35,159 nt of DNA from Polaromonas sp. GTDB taxonomy: Bacteria > Pseudomonadota > Gammaproteobacteria > Burkholderiales > Burkholderiaceae_C. Every line of letters begins with the position of its first letter. Positions within the stretch are counted from its first letter, which is position 1. Location: positions 1 to 35,159 of the forward strand of contig PNNC01000028.1 in the NCBI GenBank assembly GCA_013824015.1. Reading direction: 5' to 3'. Under the pieces are notes generated by a model that worked only from the letters and a program-made list of their open reading frames with translations, made no database searches and was not told where the DNA came from. Made by a program: the position numbers and the translations under genes. Positions 1,277 to 26,905 of this stretch are shown here, piece by piece.

Positions 1277-2614
1277 ATGGCCTCACGCGCTGAGACTTCG
1301 TTCGGCCCCGACGCCGATGCCAAAGCCGCAGCGCCGCTGGCCGAACGCTTCCGGCCGCAGTCGCTGGGTGAAGTGATCGGCCAGCAACATTTGCTCGGCG
1401 AGGACATGCCGCTGCGGATTGCCTTCGAATCGGGCCAGCCGCACAGCTGCATCCTCTGGGGTCCGCCGGGGGTCGGCAAGACCACCATCGCGCGCCTGAT
1501 GGCCAGCAGCTTCGATGCGCACTTCATCACCATCTCGGCCGTGCTGGGTGGCGTCAAGGACATCCGCGAAGCGGTCGAGCAGGCCAGCATCTGGCAGGGA
1601 CAGGGCCGGCGCACCATCATGTTTGTCGATGAGGTGCACCGCTTCAACAAGTCGCAGCAGGACGCCTTTTTGCCGCATGTGGAAAGCGGCCTGTTCACCT
1701 TCATAGGCGCCACCACCGAAAATCCCTCGTTCGAGGTCAACTCCGCCTTGCTGTCGCGCGCCGTGGTGTATGTGCTGCAGCCGCTGGGCGACGAGGATCT
1801 GAAACAAATCATCGCCAAGGTCCTTGCGGAACGTGCGCTGCCAGCGATCGAATCGATAGCGCCTGAAGCGGTGGACCAGCTGGTGGCCTATGCCGACGGC
1901 GATGCAAGGCGCCTGCTCAACACCCTGGAGTCACTCGATGTCGCCGGGCGGCGCGAGAAAAACGGCGGCAGGGTGGCTGTGACGGGCGCCTGGCTGCTCA
2001 AGGTGCTGGGCCAGCAGATGCGCCGCTATGACAAGGGCGGCGAGCAGTTTTACGACACCATCTCGGCGTTGCACAAGTCGGTGCGCGGATCCGACCCCGA
2101 CGCGGCGCTGTACTGGCTGGTGCGCATGCTCGACGGTGGCGCCGAGCCCAAATACATGGCGCGGCGCCTGATCCGCATGGCCAGTGAGGATATCGGTCTG
2201 GCTGACCCGCGCGCCTTGCGGCTGGCGCTCGATGCCGCTGAAGTCTACGAGCGCCTCGGTTCGCCCGAAGGCGAGCTGGCGCTGGCTGAGTGTGTGATCT
2301 ATCTGGCGGTTGCACCCAAGTCCAACGCCGCCTACAAGGCGTTCAACGAGGCCAGGGCCTTTGTCAAAAAGGATGGCACCCGGCCGGTGCCGCTGCACCT
2401 GCGCAACGCGCCGACCAAACTCATGAAGGCGCTGGACTACGGCAAGAATTACCGCTACGCCCATGATGAAGAGGACGGTTTCGCCGCTGGTGAAAGTTAT
2501 CTGCCCGAGGGCATGGCGGCGCCCGGCTTCTACCGGCCGGTCCCTCGTGGTCTGGAAATCCGCATTGCGGACAAGCTCGCCGAGCTGAAGTCAAAAAACG
2601 ACAAAAAGCCCTGA
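1277..2614 (+). CDS. rarA: Replication-associated recombination protein A (RarA/MgsA) AAA+ ATPase
   Basis: 445 residues, the usual RarA length. RarA is a clamp-loader-like AAA+ ATPase that acts at stalled or gapped replication forks. Visible in order: the N-terminal PLAERFRPQSLGEVIGQQHL box typical of the RarA/RuvB/RFC group; Walker A GPPGVGKT at about residues 62-69; Walker B with DEVH at 118-121 followed by RFNKSQQDAFLPHVE; sensor 1 in FIGATTENPSFEVN; a C-terminal tetramerisation region with YDTISALHKSVRGSDPDAAL and MASEDIGLADPRAL. The frame is open further upstream through lolA, but homology begins at ATG 1277, 8 nt after the lolA stop. The next gene is 270 nt away. Confidence 0.96.
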   Translation: MASRAETSFGPDADAKAAAPLAERFRPQSLGEVIGQQHLLGEDMPLRIAFESGQPHSCILWGPPGVGKTTIARLMASSFDAHFITISAVLGGVKDIREAVEQASIWQGQGRRTIMFVDEVHRFNKSQQDAFLPHVESGLFTFIGATTENPSFEVNSALLSRAVVYVLQPLGDEDLKQIIAKVLAERALPAIESIAPEAVDQLVAYADGDARRLLNTLESLDVAGRREKNGGRVAVTGAWLLKVLGQQMRRYDKGGEQFYDTISALHKSVRGSDPDAALYWLVRMLDGGAEPKYMARRLIRMASEDIGLADPRALRLALDAAEVYERLGSPEGELALAECVIYLAVAPKSNAAYKAFNEARAFVKKDGTRPVPLHLRNAPTKLMKALDYGKNYRYAHDEEDGFAAGESYLPEGMAAPGFYRPVPRGLEIRIADKLAELKSKNDKKP

Positions 2615-5733: not shown

Positions 5734-6450
5734 ATGGCAAACACACTTCTCAAGGTGACGGGGCTCAAGGTCGCGTATGGCGGCATCAAGGCGGTCAAGG
5801 GCGTGGACTTTGAAGTCAACGAGGGCGAACTCGTCACGCTGATCGGCTCCAACGGCGCCGGCAAGACCACCACCATGAAAGCCATCACCGGCACCCTGCC
5901 GATGGCCGAGGGCGACATCGAATACCTGGGCAAAAGCATCAAGGGCAAGGGCGCCTGGGACCTGGTCAGGGACGGCCTGGCCATGGTGCCCGAGGGCCGC
6001 GGCGTGTTCACCCGCATGACCATCACCGAGAACCTGCAGATGGGCGCCTACATCCGCGACGACAAGGCTGGCATCGCCGAAGACATCGAGAAGATGTACA
6101 CGATTTTTCCGCGCCTGCGCGAACGCAAGGACCAGCTGGCCGGCACCATGAGCGGCGGCGAGCAGCAGATGCTGGCCATGGGCCGCGCGCTGATGAGCCG
6201 TCCGCGCGTCCTGCTGCTGGACGAGCCGTCGATGGGCCTGAGCCCGATCATGGTCGACAAGATCTTCGAGGTGGTGAAGGACGTGTCGGCGCGCGGCGTC
6301 ACCGTGCTGCTGGTCGAGCAGAACGCCAGCCGCGCGCTGGGCATCGCCGACCGCGGTTATGTGATGGAGTCGGGCATTGTCACCATGAACGGCGATGCCA
6401 AGGATTTGCTCAACGACCCGCGGGTTCGCGCAGCCTATCTGGGTGAGTGA
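5734..6450 (+). CDS. livF: Branched-chain amino acid ABC transporter ATPase LivF
   Basis: 238 residues, the second ATPase and last gene of livHMGF. Walker A GSNGAGKT at about residues 38-45, the LivF hallmark MVPEGRGVFTRMTITENLQM, signature MSGGEQQMLAMGRAL, Walker B VLLLDEPSMGLSP, and switch region LLVEQNASRALGIADRGYVM are all visible. AAGGGA at 5719-5724 is 9 nt before ATG 5734. The frame runs open upstream into livG, but homology starts here. A REP-like repeat begins 16 nt after the stop, and 617 nt of gene-free sequence follow. Confidence 0.95.
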   Translation: MANTLLKVTGLKVAYGGIKAVKGVDFEVNEGELVTLIGSNGAGKTTTMKAITGTLPMAEGDIEYLGKSIKGKGAWDLVRDGLAMVPEGRGVFTRMTITENLQMGAYIRDDKAGIAEDIEKMYTIFPRLRERKDQLAGTMSGGEQQMLAMGRALMSRPRVLLLDEPSMGLSPIMVDKIFEVVKDVSARGVTVLLVEQNASRALGIADRGYVMESGIVTMNGDAKDLLNDPRVRAAYLGE

Positions 6451-6466
6451 AGCTTCAAGCCTTTTC

Positions 6467-6515
6467 GGGCTCTGGCCCATGACTGGCGGGCGTGAACAGC
6501 TATTGAATTCATAGC
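6467..6515 (-). repeat. Short REP-like repeat, copy R1 (49 bp)
   Basis: Read on the minus strand it starts GCTAT-GAATTCA-ATAGC (5-bp stem, 7-nt loop), continues TGTTCACG and ends ATGGGCCAGAGCCC. It aligns without gaps over 49 bp to copies at 7432, 9757, 12976 and 26857. The shared core is GCTAT-N7-ATAGCTG, a C/G-rich middle, then GGGCTGGAG(C/G)C. It lies just 3' of livF. Confidence 0.8.
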
Positions 6516-6601
6516 GAAATAGTTGTCGTACCTGTCATCCCTGACTGGATCCGGGATCCATGTTGGCTTGCTCGTACCGTTTGGTTTGCCAGCGCCTGCA
6601 G

Positions 6602-7017
6602 GCCGGGGGTTGCCCGGCGGCAACTCACTTTTCTTTGTCTCGCCAAAGAAAAGTAAGCCAAAGAAAGGCGACGCTATGGTCCGGGTCCTTCCGCTTCGCT
6701 CCAGGCAACCTGCGGTGCTCGACAAAAGCGGGGTCTCGCTCGAACTCGCCTTCGGCTCAGACAATCGCGATCCCTGATCCGCTTTTGCCTGCGCTCCTCG
6801 GCCCAGCCCGACGGGTGGAGAAAAAACCAATGCCGGGGAGAAAATCCGGAGCAGAAAAAGCGCGCAGCGCTTCTTCTGCGGGAATCCCAAGCGGCGGTCA
6901 TGTTTGCACGCGAGCGCAGCGCACGCGGCCACATGAGGCTCCCTTCTCTCGCCCAGCGGGGCGAGGGAAGGGCGGGGGGGTGGGAGTGGGGAGTTAGCTC
7001 CTGCTATCGAAGGCGGA
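6602..7017 (+). repeat. Long structured intergenic repeat, copy A (~420 bp)
   Basis: This stretch has no credible gene. It matches 14133-14556 in the same orientation over its full length (for example CGAACTCGCCTTCGGCTCAG and CCTCGGCCCAGCCCGACGGG are identical). Hairpins in order: GCCGGG/CCCGGC (6602-6607/6613-6618); ACTTTTCTTTG/CAAAGAAAAGT (6627-6637/6644-6654); CAAAAGCGG/CCGCTTTTG (6723-6731/6779-6787); a 13-bp stem with one mismatch and GCA loop (6851-6863/6867-6879); and a 14-bp stem with one G-U (6941-6954/6959-6972). The third and fourth stems have different sequences in the other copy but still pair. Ends are approximate. No terminal inverted repeat or target duplication was found. Short open frames inside it look spurious. 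The bases from 6516 to 6601 hold no gene that I can see. Confidence 0.8.
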
Positions 7018-7067
7018 CTGCAGCCGCATCGTGGCGCAACTAACAAATCAATACCAACAACCCAAAC

Positions 7068-7706
7068 TCAAACCGGCCAGACCACCCCGTTGTCATTGAG
7101 GATCGCATCCAGCGGCACATCGTGCGGCTCAGGCTCCAGGTCGGGCAGCCAGCCGTGGCTGTAGCCAAGGCCGACGGTGAAGGGTCTGGGCTGCAGCGTC
7201 GCCAGCGTGCGGTCGTAAAAGCCGCCGCCGTAGCCGAGCCGGAAGCCGCCCGGCCCGTAACCGACACAGGGCACAAACAGCAGGGTCGGCACGATGATCT
7301 CGGTGTCCTTGGGCTTGGGGATGCCGTAGGCATCTTCTTCCATCGGGCAACCGGGGTACCAGGCATGGAAGGTCAGGGTCTTGTGCAGCTTGTTGACCAC
7401 CGGCAGGCCGATCTTGCGCGGCGACCGGTTTGCTATGTTTTCAGTAGCTGCTTCCGCCCGTCCTTCATGGGCTACAGCCTGATCTGCTTGTGAACCCTGG
7501 CTTAAAATGGCGTCTTCCTGCCAGCGGTACAGGGCCGGCAGCGGATCGAACTCCCCCTTGATCGGCCAGTAAGCCCCGATCACGACGTCCTCGCGGCCGA
7601 CCAGCCAGATCCGCATGACCCGCTGTAACAGGTCGGCCCGCTGTAGGCGGTCGGGAAGGTTCAGGCGTTGTTCAATCAGCGCTTTTCGCGCAGTTAATTT
7701 GTCCAT
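7068..7706 (-). CDS. fau: 5-formyltetrahydrofolate cyclo-ligase with an in-frame repeat-derived insert
   Basis: 212 residues. The enzyme converts 5-formyl-THF to 5,10-methenyl-THF using ATP. Family features: GAYWPIKGEFDPLPALYRWQ (about 44-63), RKIGLPVVNK...LTFHAW (97-114), and the glycine-rich nucleotide loop GYGPGGFRLGYGGGFYDRTL. Between the second and third blocks is an unusual stretch at about residues 66-95 (contains DQAVAHEGRAEAATENIA), encoded largely by a 49-bp repeat (7432-7480) read antisense. The rest of the ORF is intact and collinear with the family, so the gene is probably functional. ATG at 7706-7704 lies only 9 bp from the slt start on the other strand. No good Shine-Dalgarno is seen. 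Family symbols are fau/ygfA. Confidence 0.9.
   Translation of the reverse strand: MDKLTARKALIEQRLNLPDRLQRADLLQRVMRIWLVGREDVVIGAYWPIKGEFDPLPALYRWQEDAILSQGSQADQAVAHEGRAEAATENIANRSPRKIGLPVVNKLHKTLTFHAWYPGCPMEEDAYGIPKPKDTEIIVPTLLFVPCVGYGPGGFRLGYGGGFYDRTLATLQPRPFTVGLGYSHGWLPDLEPEPHDVPLDAILNDNGVVWPV
7432..7480 (+). repeat. Short REP-like repeat, copy R2, inside the fau coding sequence
   Basis: Same 49-bp layout as the other copies: GCTAT-GTTTTCA-GTAGC (one G-U in the stem), then TGCTTCCGCCCG and ATGGGCTACAGCCT. It lies on the strand opposite fau and encodes about residues 75-92 of that protein. Repeat-family identity comes from the gap-free match to copies at 9757, 12976 and, inverted, 6467 and 26857. 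Confidence 0.75.
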
Positions 7707-12944: not shown

Positions 12945-12975
12945 TGTTTCTGCCGGCCTGGGCGCAGGCTGACGC

Positions 12976-13024
12976 GCTATCGATTCAATAGCTGCTTGCG
13001 CAATCCGGGTATGGGCTGGAGCCC
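12976..13024 (+). repeat. Short REP-like repeat, copy R4
   Basis: GCTAT-CGATTCA-ATAGC (perfect 5-bp stem, 7-nt loop) followed by TGCTTGCGC and ATGGGCTGGAGCCC. It fills most of the 96-nt gap between the convergent GST and Bug genes. Of the five copies it looks closest to the consensus. Confidence 0.8.
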
Positions 13025-13040
13025 AAAATCCCGAACAGCG

Positions 13041-14039
13041 TCAGTCGACGCGTGCGCCCGAGGCCTTCACCACTTTTTCATACTTTGCCAGCTCCGCCTT
13101 CATGAAGGCGCCGAACTGCTCGGGCGTGTTGGCCACCGGCTCGGCCATCAGCGCGGCAAAACGGGTTTTGGCTTCGGGCGAATTGAGTGCGGCGACAAAG
13201 GCCTGGTTCAGTTTGGCGACCACGTCCTTCGGGGTGGCGGCCGGCGCCACCAGGCCCCACCAGGTGTCGATCGAAAAACCCTTGAGGGTCTCGGCCACGG
13301 CGGGCACCTCGGGCAGCACCGCGCTGCGGGCGCTGGTGGTGACCGCCAGCGCCTTGAGCTTGCCGGCCTTGATGTTGGCCGCGGCGGTGGCGAGGTTGTC
13401 GAAATTGAAATCGACCTGGCCGCTGAGCAGCGCCAGTTGCGCCGGGTTGCCGCCGTTGTAGGGGATGTGCAGCGCGAAGATGCCGGCCTGCGCCTTGAAC
13501 ATTTCGCCGGCCAGGTGGCCCGCGCTGCCATTGCCCCCACTGCCGTAGTTGAGCTTGGCGGGATTGGCCTTGGCGTAGCTGATCAGGTCGGCCAGGGTGT
13601 TGATGTTCAGGCGCCTGGCGGTGTCGGCATTGATCACCAGCACATTGGGCACGCGCAGCATTTGCGTGATGGGCGCAAAGTCGGTGGCTGCGTTGTACGG
13701 CATCTTGCTGTAGAGCCAGGGGTTGATGGCGTGGGTGGCCACGGCGGCAATGCCGATGGTCATGCCGTCCGGCGCCGCCTTGGCGATGGCGTCCGCCCCG
13801 ATGTTGCCGCCGCCGCCCGGGCGGTTTTCAATGATGACCGTGCCCAGCGAGTCCTTGACACGTTCGGCCATCAGCCGCGCCGTGACATCGATCGGGCCGC
13901 CTGGCGCGTAGGGAACGATGATGCGCATGACTTTGGGCTGCGCCTGCGCGGTGGTGATGGTGGCGGACAGGGCCAGCGCGGCGAAAGAGGAGATCGCCAG
14001 CGTGCGGGCCGCGAGGAAGGGGAGGGCGGTAAGTTTCAT
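13041..14039 (-). CDS. Bug/TctC family tripartite tricarboxylate-type binding protein
   Basis: 332 residues, an extracytoplasmic solute-binding protein of the Bug family, greatly expanded in Burkholderiales. Signal peptide at about 1-34 (hydrophobic ISSFAALALSATITTAQAQ). The mature N terminus has the family signature MRIIVPYAPGGPIDVTARLM. Later hallmarks: VIIENRPGGGGNIGADAIAK, YGSGGNGSAGHLAGEMFK and FSIDTWWGLVAPAATPKDVV. No TctAB membrane genes are adjacent, which is usual for orphan Bug proteins, so ligand and transporter partner are unknown. A 17-bp palindrome lies 11 nt upstream of its start on the minus strand. Confidence 0.92.
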   Translation of the reverse strand: MKLTALPFLAARTLAISSFAALALSATITTAQAQPKVMRIIVPYAPGGPIDVTARLMAERVKDSLGTVIIENRPGGGGNIGADAIAKAAPDGMTIGIAAVATHAINPWLYSKMPYNAATDFAPITQMLRVPNVLVINADTARRLNINTLADLISYAKANPAKLNYGSGGNGSAGHLAGEMFKAQAGIFALHIPYNGGNPAQLALLSGQVDFNFDNLATAAANIKAGKLKALAVTTSARSAVLPEVPAVAETLKGFSIDTWWGLVAPAATPKDVVAKLNQAFVAALNSPEAKTRFAALMAEPVANTPEQFGAFMKAELAKYEKVVKASGARVD

Positions 14040-14050
14040 GGGCTTGATTG

Positions 14051-14067
14051 TGCAAAAGATTTTTGCA
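14051..14067. promoter_or_regulatory. Operator-like palindrome upstream of the Bug gene
   Basis: TGCAAAA-GAT-TTTTGCA is a perfect 7-bp inverted repeat with a 3-bp spacer. It lies 12-28 bp upstream of the Bug-gene start codon (14039, minus strand). It could be a repressor site or a short leader hairpin. Confidence 0.4.
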
Positions 14068-14101
14068 GGGGGTTATGTGGGATTCCCTAGGAGCCATTTA
14101 C

Positions 14102-14130
14102 GGCAAGCTCGACGATGGCAGCTTGCCATC
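14102..14130 (+). repeat. Two mutually exclusive hairpins at the edge of repeat copy B
   Basis: GGCAAGCT (14102-14109) pairs with AGCTTGCC (14120-14127). Alternatively GATGGCA (14114-14120) pairs with TGCCATC (14124-14130) with a 3-nt loop. Both are perfect and they overlap, so only one can form. They sit immediately before the shared part of the long repeat and have no clear counterpart in copy A. Confidence 0.45.
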
Positions 14131-14132
14131 AA

Positions 14133-14556
14133 GCCGGGTCTCGCCCCGGCAGGCGAGGCACTTTTCTTTGCGTCGCCAAAGAAAAGTACCCAAAAGAAAG
14201 GCGACCCGATGGTCTGGGGCCCCTGCGCTTCGCTTCGGGGCGACCTGCGGTGCTCGCAAAAAATGGGGTCGAGCTCGAACTCGCCTTCGGCTCAGACAAT
14301 CGCTCGCCCTGATCCATTTTTCGCTGCGCTCCTCGGCCCAGCCCGACGGGTGGGGGGAAGAAAACCAATACCCGGATACCGGACCCCGTTCGGAGTGCAT
14401 GAAGCGCGCAGCGCTTCATGCACGGGAATCCCAACAGACGGTCATGTGGGCACGCGAGAGCAGCGCACGCGGCCAAATGAGGCGCCCTTCTCTCGCCCAG
14501 CGGGGCGAGGGGCGGGGGGTTGGGAGTGGGGAGTCAAGCCTGCTATCGAAAGCAGA
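14133..14556 (+). repeat. Long structured intergenic repeat, copy B (~420 bp)
   Basis: Same element and orientation as 6602-7017. Hairpins: GCCGGG/CCCGGC (14133-14138/14145-14150); ACTTTTCTTTG/CAAAGAAAAGT (14160-14170/14177-14187); AAAAATGG/CCATTTTT (14259-14266/14314-14321); a perfect 13-bp stem GTGCATGAAGCGC with its complement around a GCA loop (14395-14407/14411-14423); CTCGCCC/GGGCGAG with AGCG loop (14492-14498/14503-14509). It ends near CTGCTATCGAAAGCAG. It fills most of the 537-nt gap between hemL and the Bug gene; nothing else gene-like is seen there. Confidence 0.8.
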
Positions 14557-14576
14557 CCCGGGGCGCGGCGCCGATA

Positions 14577-15876
<1,300 letters not shown>

Positions 15877-26856: not shown

Positions 26857-26905
26857 GGCCTCCAGCCCATAGCCGGCAAGGGCGAGCAGCTATAAAAGTT
26901 ATAGC
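26857..26905 (-). repeat. Short REP-like repeat, copy R5, overlapping the phrB stop codon
   Basis: On the minus strand it reads GCTATAA-CTT-TTATAGC (7-bp stem, 3-nt loop), then TGCTCGCCC and ATGGGCTGGAGGCC. It lies between the convergent chpA and phrB. The phrB stop (TAA, 26901-26899) and its preceding Leu codon fall inside the repeat. Confidence 0.8.

Follow-up and report, generated by a model that had tools for sequence, protein, structure and literature searches.

Intrastrand-triplex repeats are already known, and earlier work on them is reportedly that of Hoyne and Maher. The known examples include the BoxC, PIT and TM_ECO repeats (Holder et al. 2015, PMC4666352; this and the comparisons below draw on part of that paper). 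In the sections used here, in vivo DMS footprinting of TM_ECO gave no support for a stable triplex and its duplex form gave no triplex signals; TM_ECO is linked to genomic instability, and a polymerase block in vitro is cited, with no effect in vivo (Holder et al., PMC4666352). The element described here is a dispersed repeat of Polaromonas with two copies, A and B, in the window, that is, the whole stretch of 35,159 nucleotides that was analysed. It resembles BoxC, PIT and TM_ECO as described there in being dispersed and intergenic, in the order pyrimidine-purine-purine (Y-R-R) on one strand (class II, purine motif), in occurring as inverted pairs, in a copy number that is variable between relatives and in its association with genome instability. 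TM_ECO is a 37-nt G/C-rich motif, whereas the Polaromonas element has two candidate triplex motifs bounding a long stretch with further hairpins. Also unlike TM_ECO, the 5’ motif is A/T-rich and clamped, and its third strand covaries allele by allele. TM_ECO is found more often upstream of ORFs, whereas the Polaromonas elements lie mostly between convergent genes. When the TM_ECO/BoxC pattern CCCTCNCCC N3-6 GGGNGAGGG N3 GGGNGAGGG was sought at the 3’ end of 78 full copies, there was no exact match and only one copy matched with at most one mismatch, so the family does not follow this pattern; the minimum number of mismatches was 1 in one copy, 2 in 7, 3 in 24, 4 in 38, 5 in 5, 6 in 2 and 8 in 1. 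Elsewhere in the fetched loci, away from the 78 full copies, the exact pattern does occur 10 times.

Two other groups of repeats invite comparison. Like the REP/BIME sequences associated with RAYT transposases, the element consists of dispersed palindromic units, is found as inverted pairs and is intergenic; unlike them it is much longer, is mosaic, and has no link with Y1-type genes that we could find (23 of 25 Y1 loci, see below). The BRE repeats are, like our element, intergenic repeats of Betaproteobacteria, and most copies (29) are in Polaromonas sp. JS666 (Hot et al. 2011, PMC3110155, used in part). BREs are described there as about 90 bp long and often arranged in tandem arrays, unlike the Polaromonas element; this comparison is by description, not by sequence. 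In open PubMed Central text we did not find a clamped A/T-rich core, a composite element with two triplexes or allele-by-allele covariation of a third strand. Intrastrand-triplex repeats as such are not new; as judged from that body of text, these three features may be.

The two window copies are members of a many-copy non-coding repeat family in Polaromonas. The sequence-only reading had proposed that 6602-7017 and about 14133-14556 are one element in the same orientation, and the two align over their full length (BLASTN, 81% identity, E 1e-104); they also give the two largest direct-repeat families in a repeat search of the window. Both sit between long ORFs, in the gaps 6450 to 7068 and 14039 to 14577. 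The common order of hairpins that it described recurs in A, B and the further aligned copies, and the finding that it named as a refutation, only these two copies, is contradicted by at least 46 BLASTN places in the host genome (3.8 Mb in 234 contigs) with copy A as query. Its description of a dispersed, structured element that is not a cis-element of one pathway is supported, and the element is multi-copy. Of the 46 places 25 are near full length, and the figure is a lower bound, 40 of 100 candidates having been scored. The 5’ core is present in 52 copies in this genome. Several contigs start or stop inside the element, which indicates that the assembly breaks there. The nearest relative found (G017) has at least 52 places, with 40 of 108 candidates scored.

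The distribution is patchy. Copy number in related genomes ranges from 0 to dozens: there is a match in 38 of 61 genomes of the genus, and in 65 of 200 genomes of the taxonomic family, where it is mainly the first half that matches. With the first half as query, the 5’ core was found in 63 of 250 Burkholderiales genomes, representing 38 of 121 genera, and in the class 30 of 369 genomes match the 5’ core when the third tract is left free. An exact 26-base piece occurs in at least 97 stretches of a named genome collection; among the matches listed, 79 of 80 are titled Polaromonas and one Rubrivivax. Plasmid matches comprise 13 records, mostly covering 11 to 13% of the query. No match was found among 50,697 phage records and a phage origin was rejected. 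A decayed coding gene was also rejected, since the changes in the hairpins are compensatory. Rfam 15 gave no match in the window at gathering thresholds, and relaxed thresholds with three copies gave none above the gathering score. In one genome (G687, loci L333-L339) a longer related element was seen, at least about 800 bases of which are alike, by eye, in seven loci; one of its ends is the 5’ core, and loci that extend far enough show a degenerate inverted core at the opposite end.

The element is roughly 430 to 480 bp long. In alignments of 25 copies from the host genome, and of 78 copies from this genome and fetched relatives, it divides into two modules, a 5’ module at about 1-217 of copy A and a 3’ module at 217-416. 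Hairpin arms covary among the aligned copies (CTTTTCTTTG/CAAAGAAAAG, CTTTCTTTTG/CAAAAGAAAG, CTTTCTCTTG/CAAGAGAAAG), and the 29-base hairpin He has several alleles. Both in Polaromonas and in other genera the 5’ module is also found in pairs, with two inverted copies separated by about 90 to 100 bases. While the sequence-only reading had placed copy A correctly, its ends were a little short: an outer stem lies at the limits of the element (Table 1) and conservation among the 78 copies runs past both ends. The outer stem differs among copies with pairing kept in those read; the element does have covarying end sequences, where the sequence-only reading saw no terminal inverted repeat. The window copies are themselves imperfect representatives, A in both third strands and B in its shortened 3’ R1.

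Table 1. Coordinates, in the window, of the two copies and of their hairpins, clamps and candidate triplex motifs
Feature	Coordinates	Strand	Basis
Copy A, outer stem to outer stem	6583..7019	+	coordinates and alignment of copies
Copy A outer stem, left arm	6583..6590	+	
Copy A outer stem, right arm	7012..7019	+	
Copy A 5’ motif, pyrimidine tract Y, CTTTTCTTTG	6628..6637	+	family covariation
Copy A 5’ motif, first purine tract R1, Watson-Crick partner of Y	6644..6653	+	
Copy A 5’ motif, second purine tract R2, CAAAGAAA, differing in one base from the exact mirror AAAAGAAA	6659..6666	+	
Copy A clamp S2, loop side TCGCC	6640..6644	+	S2 covariation
Copy A clamp S2, 3’ side GGCGA, directly behind R2	6667..6671	+	
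Copy A hairpin He, which has more alleles in the family than any other hairpin	6852..6879	+	
Copy A 3’ motif, pyrimidine tract	6941..6954	+	
Copy A 3’ motif, first purine tract, GGGGCGAGGGAAGGG	6958..6972	+	triad table
Copy A 3’ motif, second purine tract, GGGGTGGGAGTGGGG; one of the 3 of 17 AA-type copies without the matching TT	6977..6991	+	
Copy B, as delimited by the sequence-only reading	14133..14556	+	alignment, BLASTN
Copy B 5’ motif, Y	14161..14170	+	
Copy B clamp S2, loop side GTCGCC	14172..14177	+	
Copy B 5’ motif, R1	14177..14186	+	
Copy B 5’ motif, R2, exact mirror of R1	14192..14199	+	
Copy B clamp S2, 3’ side GGCGAC	14200..14205	+	
Copy B hairpin He, another allele, whose arms match	14395..14423	+	
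Copy B 3’ motif, pyrimidine tract	14485..14498	+	
Copy B 3’ motif, first purine tract, shortened by a deletion in copy B	14502..14512	+	copy A/B alignment
Copy B 3’ motif, second purine tract, GGGTTGGGAGTGGGG	14517..14531	+	

Other short repeats accompany the element. A palindromic repeat, TCATCCC...GGGATC, lies immediately left of copy A (window 6536-6561) and, by a strict pattern, is in the left flank of 16 of the 78 full copies; a second repeat, TCGGGCTGAGC.TGTCGAA, is in the left flank of 11 of the 78, and neither is in any right flank. These may be optional left ends or preferred neighbours. A family of small palindromes around GCTATTGAATTCATAGC forms inverted-repeat pairs at window 1834-1862, 6463-6516, 12974-13028 and 26857-26905, and is also present within apparent empty sites of relatives.

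The structure had been read as hairpins only, and this missed a triple-strand (mirror) relation at both ends of the element, where a pyrimidine tract and two purine tracts follow each other on one strand and the second purine tract mirrors the first. In the 5’ core the second purine tract, behind the hairpin, is the mirror of the first and neither a direct nor an inverted copy of it. It follows the pyrimidine tract from one allele to another, for example from Y TTTTCTTT to AAAAGAAA, from TTTCTTTT to AAAGAAAA, from TTTCTCTT to AAAGAGAA and from TTTTTCTT to AAAAAGAA. Among 333 distinct readings of the 5’ motif with exact stems, 132 had a mirror match only, 6 a mirror and a direct match, 16 were palindromic hits, 4 had a direct match only and 175 (152 plus 23 palindromic) had no third-tract match; the readings count both strands, and many of the 175 are opposite-strand readings of the same hairpins. 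The sample consists of the readings from all fetched loci and 46 of the 115 rows of the class scan, leaving out duplicates, imperfect-stem rows, most opposite-strand readings and all rows of four genomes, G926 (opposite-strand readings only), G174, G000 and G595. At least one mirror case was seen for each of ten non-palindromic stem types. The four direct-only cases have one common stem, CCTTTCTTTG, and by our reading the direct match in them arises through a one-base shift. When the downstream sequences were redealt among the hairpins, mirror matches numbered 40 on average and 55 at most in 200 runs, against 138 observed, figures that, like the control for the clamp below, overstate the certainty in view of the non-independence of related copies. 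In IMG/VR, scanned without any constraint on the third tract, 46 contigs matched; among the 41 of these that were listed, the mirror tract was present in 18 of 24 hairpins with an exact stem and in 0 of 17 with an imperfect one. In the triads of the 5’ motif A is opposite A in 509 of 516 cases and G opposite G in 89 of 92, which is partly circular, the modules having been preselected by at least 6 of 8 mirror matches. The motif is A/T-rich, and A-rich purine-motif triplexes are expected to be weak.

A second feature of the 5’ core is the clamp, in which the loop of the hairpin pairs with the bases directly behind the third tract. Loop and tail change together (TCGCC/GGCGA, TGTG/CACA, GTGCG/CGCAC, GTGCCC/GGGCAC, TGGCC/GGCCA, TATCC/GGATA, GCAGC/GCTG and others). 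Over 75 distinct loop/tail combinations, 4.01 of 6 positions form Watson-Crick pairs, compared with 2.97 after shuffling (maximum 3.23 in 500 runs). The exceptions are 23 of the 75 combinations with three pairs or fewer, and some motifs (L370, L378, L387, G625, G819) have no visible clamp. With the clamp, the 5’ core has the topology of an H-type pseudoknot in which the third tract crosses the first stem.

At the 3’ end a G-rich tail comes after the last hairpin, and the motif is G/C-rich. In 68 of the 78 copies (the other 10 did not fit the pattern) the tail was set as the mirror of R1. It then has G across from G at 780 of 785 positions; facing A there is A or T at 143 of 156, and facing C there is T at 76 of 79. 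In the unmirrored register these become 700 of 785, 65 of 156 and 55 of 79. T opposite C is a tolerated interruption. The A positions carry a further signal: when R1 has AA, R2 has TT in 14 of 17 copies, and when R1 has a single A, R2 has TT in 0 of 39 (Fisher 1e-10, with copies that are not independent; 17 of the 78 copies were unmatched by the pattern and 5 odd types were excluded). Both the order Y, R1, mirrored R2 on one strand and the triads G.G-C and A(T).A-T are those of class II, the purine motif, whose triads are given as such in the part of Holder et al. (2015, PMC4666352) used here. On the bottom strand a third-strand T becomes A, a misfit for the third strand of a pyrimidine motif. 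Most simply, then, the conserved object at the 3’ end would be a purine-motif triplex formed by the top DNA strand. For the 3’ tail alone a G-quadruplex is possible, an idea that leaves the association of AA with TT, and of A with T, unexplained.

The pseudoknot topology also raises the possibility of a structured RNA family. Telomerase RNA contains an H-type pseudoknot with a major-groove triple helix, and the 5’ core has a like topology on the bottom strand. An RNA read from that strand would have an A-U stem with a U-rich loop in its major groove, with U.A-U and C+.G-C triples as in telomerase RNA, and might cap or protect RNA ends near the 3’ ends of genes. The elements do lie near gene 3’ ends, and the geometry of the bottom-strand core would suit such a fold. 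In the part of Holder et al. (PMC4666352) used here, pyrimidine-type intrastrand triplexes are held possible in RNA and the purine motif is stated not to form in it. The 3’ end code is a purine motif, unlike telomerase-type pseudoknot RNAs, and its T opposite A would break a pyrimidine motif on the bottom strand. In a hand tally of the 78 copies, G-U and A-C cells are mixed by helix: 17 G-U and 28 A-C (18 without five misaligned copies) in Hb, 15 and 46 in Hd, 22 and 14 in He, 24 and 11 in Hf, and 15 and 23 in the clamp. Over all RNAalifold pairs there are 724 G-U and 240 A-C, a total dominated by a handful of pairs in which almost all copies have G-U. Orientation is not fixed either, as in tandem gene contexts 10 full elements run with transcription and 14 against it, and Rfam gave no match. 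We therefore regard an RNA family as unlikely. The suggestion of the sequence-only reading that the repeats are a family of transcribed RNAs has thus lost ground, there being no consistent G-U bias on either strand, no fixed orientation, and A or T opposite A at the 3’ end, as in the purine motif.

How the element moves bears on a further alternative. It could be a classical MITE or a REP-like element that is mobilised by a transposase encoded in the genome and whose structure serves the enzyme only. Copy number differs among related genomes as given above, sites are occupied in one species and empty in another, and the outer ends pair, all of which fits. However, in eight comparisons of occupied and empty sites by eye no clean target duplication could be read, the flanks having diverged and some empty sites containing other repeats. 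All 22 Polaromonas-group genomes tested have a gene for a Y1-type transposase, the enzyme family examined (one copy in 19, two in 3), and they include 7 genomes without a detected element. No element was found within the fetched flanks of 23 of the 25 Y1 loci. A Y1/RAYT partner was rejected on these two grounds, and we think it very unlikely that the element is a classical transposon derivative of this kind. The Y1-type gene has an open frame of about 235-280 aa (L277-L299), and in the host genome it lies upstream of what we take to be a glutamate synthase gene. An autonomous element between widely spaced ends found no support either: in the four wide pairs of cores examined (L255, L256, L308, L309) no transposase was recognised, and the genes are ordinary or of unknown kind. 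Between or beside the wide cores (L256:1926-2991, L309:1582-2301, L308:2838-4043) are genes for proteins of 126 aa, 196 aa, 239 aa and 401 aa, which are possibly cargo. The 239 aa protein has membrane-like stretches, the 196 aa protein, the only one scanned, had no Pfam hit, and the 401 aa protein is presumably a TIR-type nucleotide-binding protein. Of the earlier description as a non-autonomous mobile repeat without a transposase, the second part stands, none being seen in the element; the first is supported by the differences in copy number and by the occupied and empty sites, and is not supported by any target duplication or mobilising enzyme that we found.

The placement of the element is biased. 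In 128 distinct elements with 450 bp and a called gene on each side, the flanking genes are convergent in 71 cases, tandem in 46 and divergent in 11, compared with 42, 90 and 48 of the 180 remaining gaps in these loci that measure 100 bp or more (convergent 71/128 against 42/180, Fisher 1e-8; genes are from a crude ORF caller, and sites common to species are not independent). In other genera the inverted pairs of the 5’ module are likewise often between convergent genes, and one inverted-pair site is common to Polaromonas and another genus (L046 with L097, L079 and L112). These observations could be explained by an element that ends transcription in both directions, or insulates, and is retained between convergent genes. 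Against this, tandem contexts account for 46 of the 128 and divergent ones for 11, and at the corresponding site many relatives carry another repeat or a small palindrome of a different kind. Solo cores share the orientation of the nearest upstream gene in 90 of 124 cases and paired cores in 39 of 57, which is a bias and no rule; on these counts we rejected the idea that the 5’ core must always lie behind a gene in sense. PIT elements are without terminator activity (Holder et al., PMC4666352, in the part used here), and the placement could reflect mere tolerance. A role in ending or insulating transcription is in our view quite improbable.

Comparison of sites shows that sites persist while alleles mix. 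Between the host genome (G000) and G017, 15 pairs of elements occupy the same site in the same orientation, as judged by matching flanks (both flanks in five), and in 0 of the 15 is the positional partner the closest G017 copy. In three comparisons (L244/L055, L067/L098 and L220, L092/L113) a full element and an inverted pair take each other's place at a shared site. The site of copy B, at the putative hemL/Bug genes, is occupied in G017; no element was found there in the other fetched relatives of the genus, except near the same gene in L128, another species. The gene order behind the putative livF differs in G017. Apparent empty sites are either bare or taken up by a short palindrome, by some other repeat or by an end hairpin that has collapsed, and at the site of L210:8612-9013, where other loci have the element, a relative (L066) has an inverted pair of a different repeat, CCGTTCGGGCTGAGCCTGTCGAAG. 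Recombination between copies would produce reshuffled hairpin alleles, swapped ends and broken gene order, and the site history fits it, although misassembly of the metagenomes is also possible: the evidence for reshuffled alleles comes from two metagenome assemblies, and a comparison of isolates showed no clear signal.

The explanation that we consider probable is a non-autonomous dispersed DNA element with an intrastrand purine-motif triplex at each end, which stalls replication and recombines between copies; it is drawn from sequence comparison. At each end the pyrimidine tract and the first purine tract of the top strand would form a hairpin, in the groove of which the second purine tract, as the mirror of the first, would lie antiparallel. 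The 5’ triplex would be A/T-rich and closed by the clamp, in which, as in a pseudoknot, the hairpin loop pairs with the bases that follow the third tract, while the 3’ triplex would be G/C-rich and resemble BoxC, PIT and TM_ECO. The top strand may fold when it is single, as on the lagging strand or during repair, and the two triplex ends may then block the polymerase and stall DNA synthesis. Template switching and recombination between copies would swap alleles and ends, and the copies may spread by means of an enzyme acting in trans.

The cellular use of DNA triplexes is a long-standing question. In the family described here the third strand tracks the other two over many alleles and taxa. 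Mirror repeats are not kept in step by ordinary template switching, which gives inverted or direct copies, and the tracking is therefore evolutionary evidence that the triple strand matters. The pattern also supplies exact three-way compensatory mutants, and the search rule of Y, R1, mirrored R2 and clamp may allow further families to be found. More tentatively, we speculate that these repeats could be a mobile or formerly mobile family spread through the Gammaproteobacteria, the ends of which may be recognised as clamped three-stranded DNA. Selection would then keep the triplex, and a protein that reads it in single-stranded DNA might copy, swap and spread the ends.
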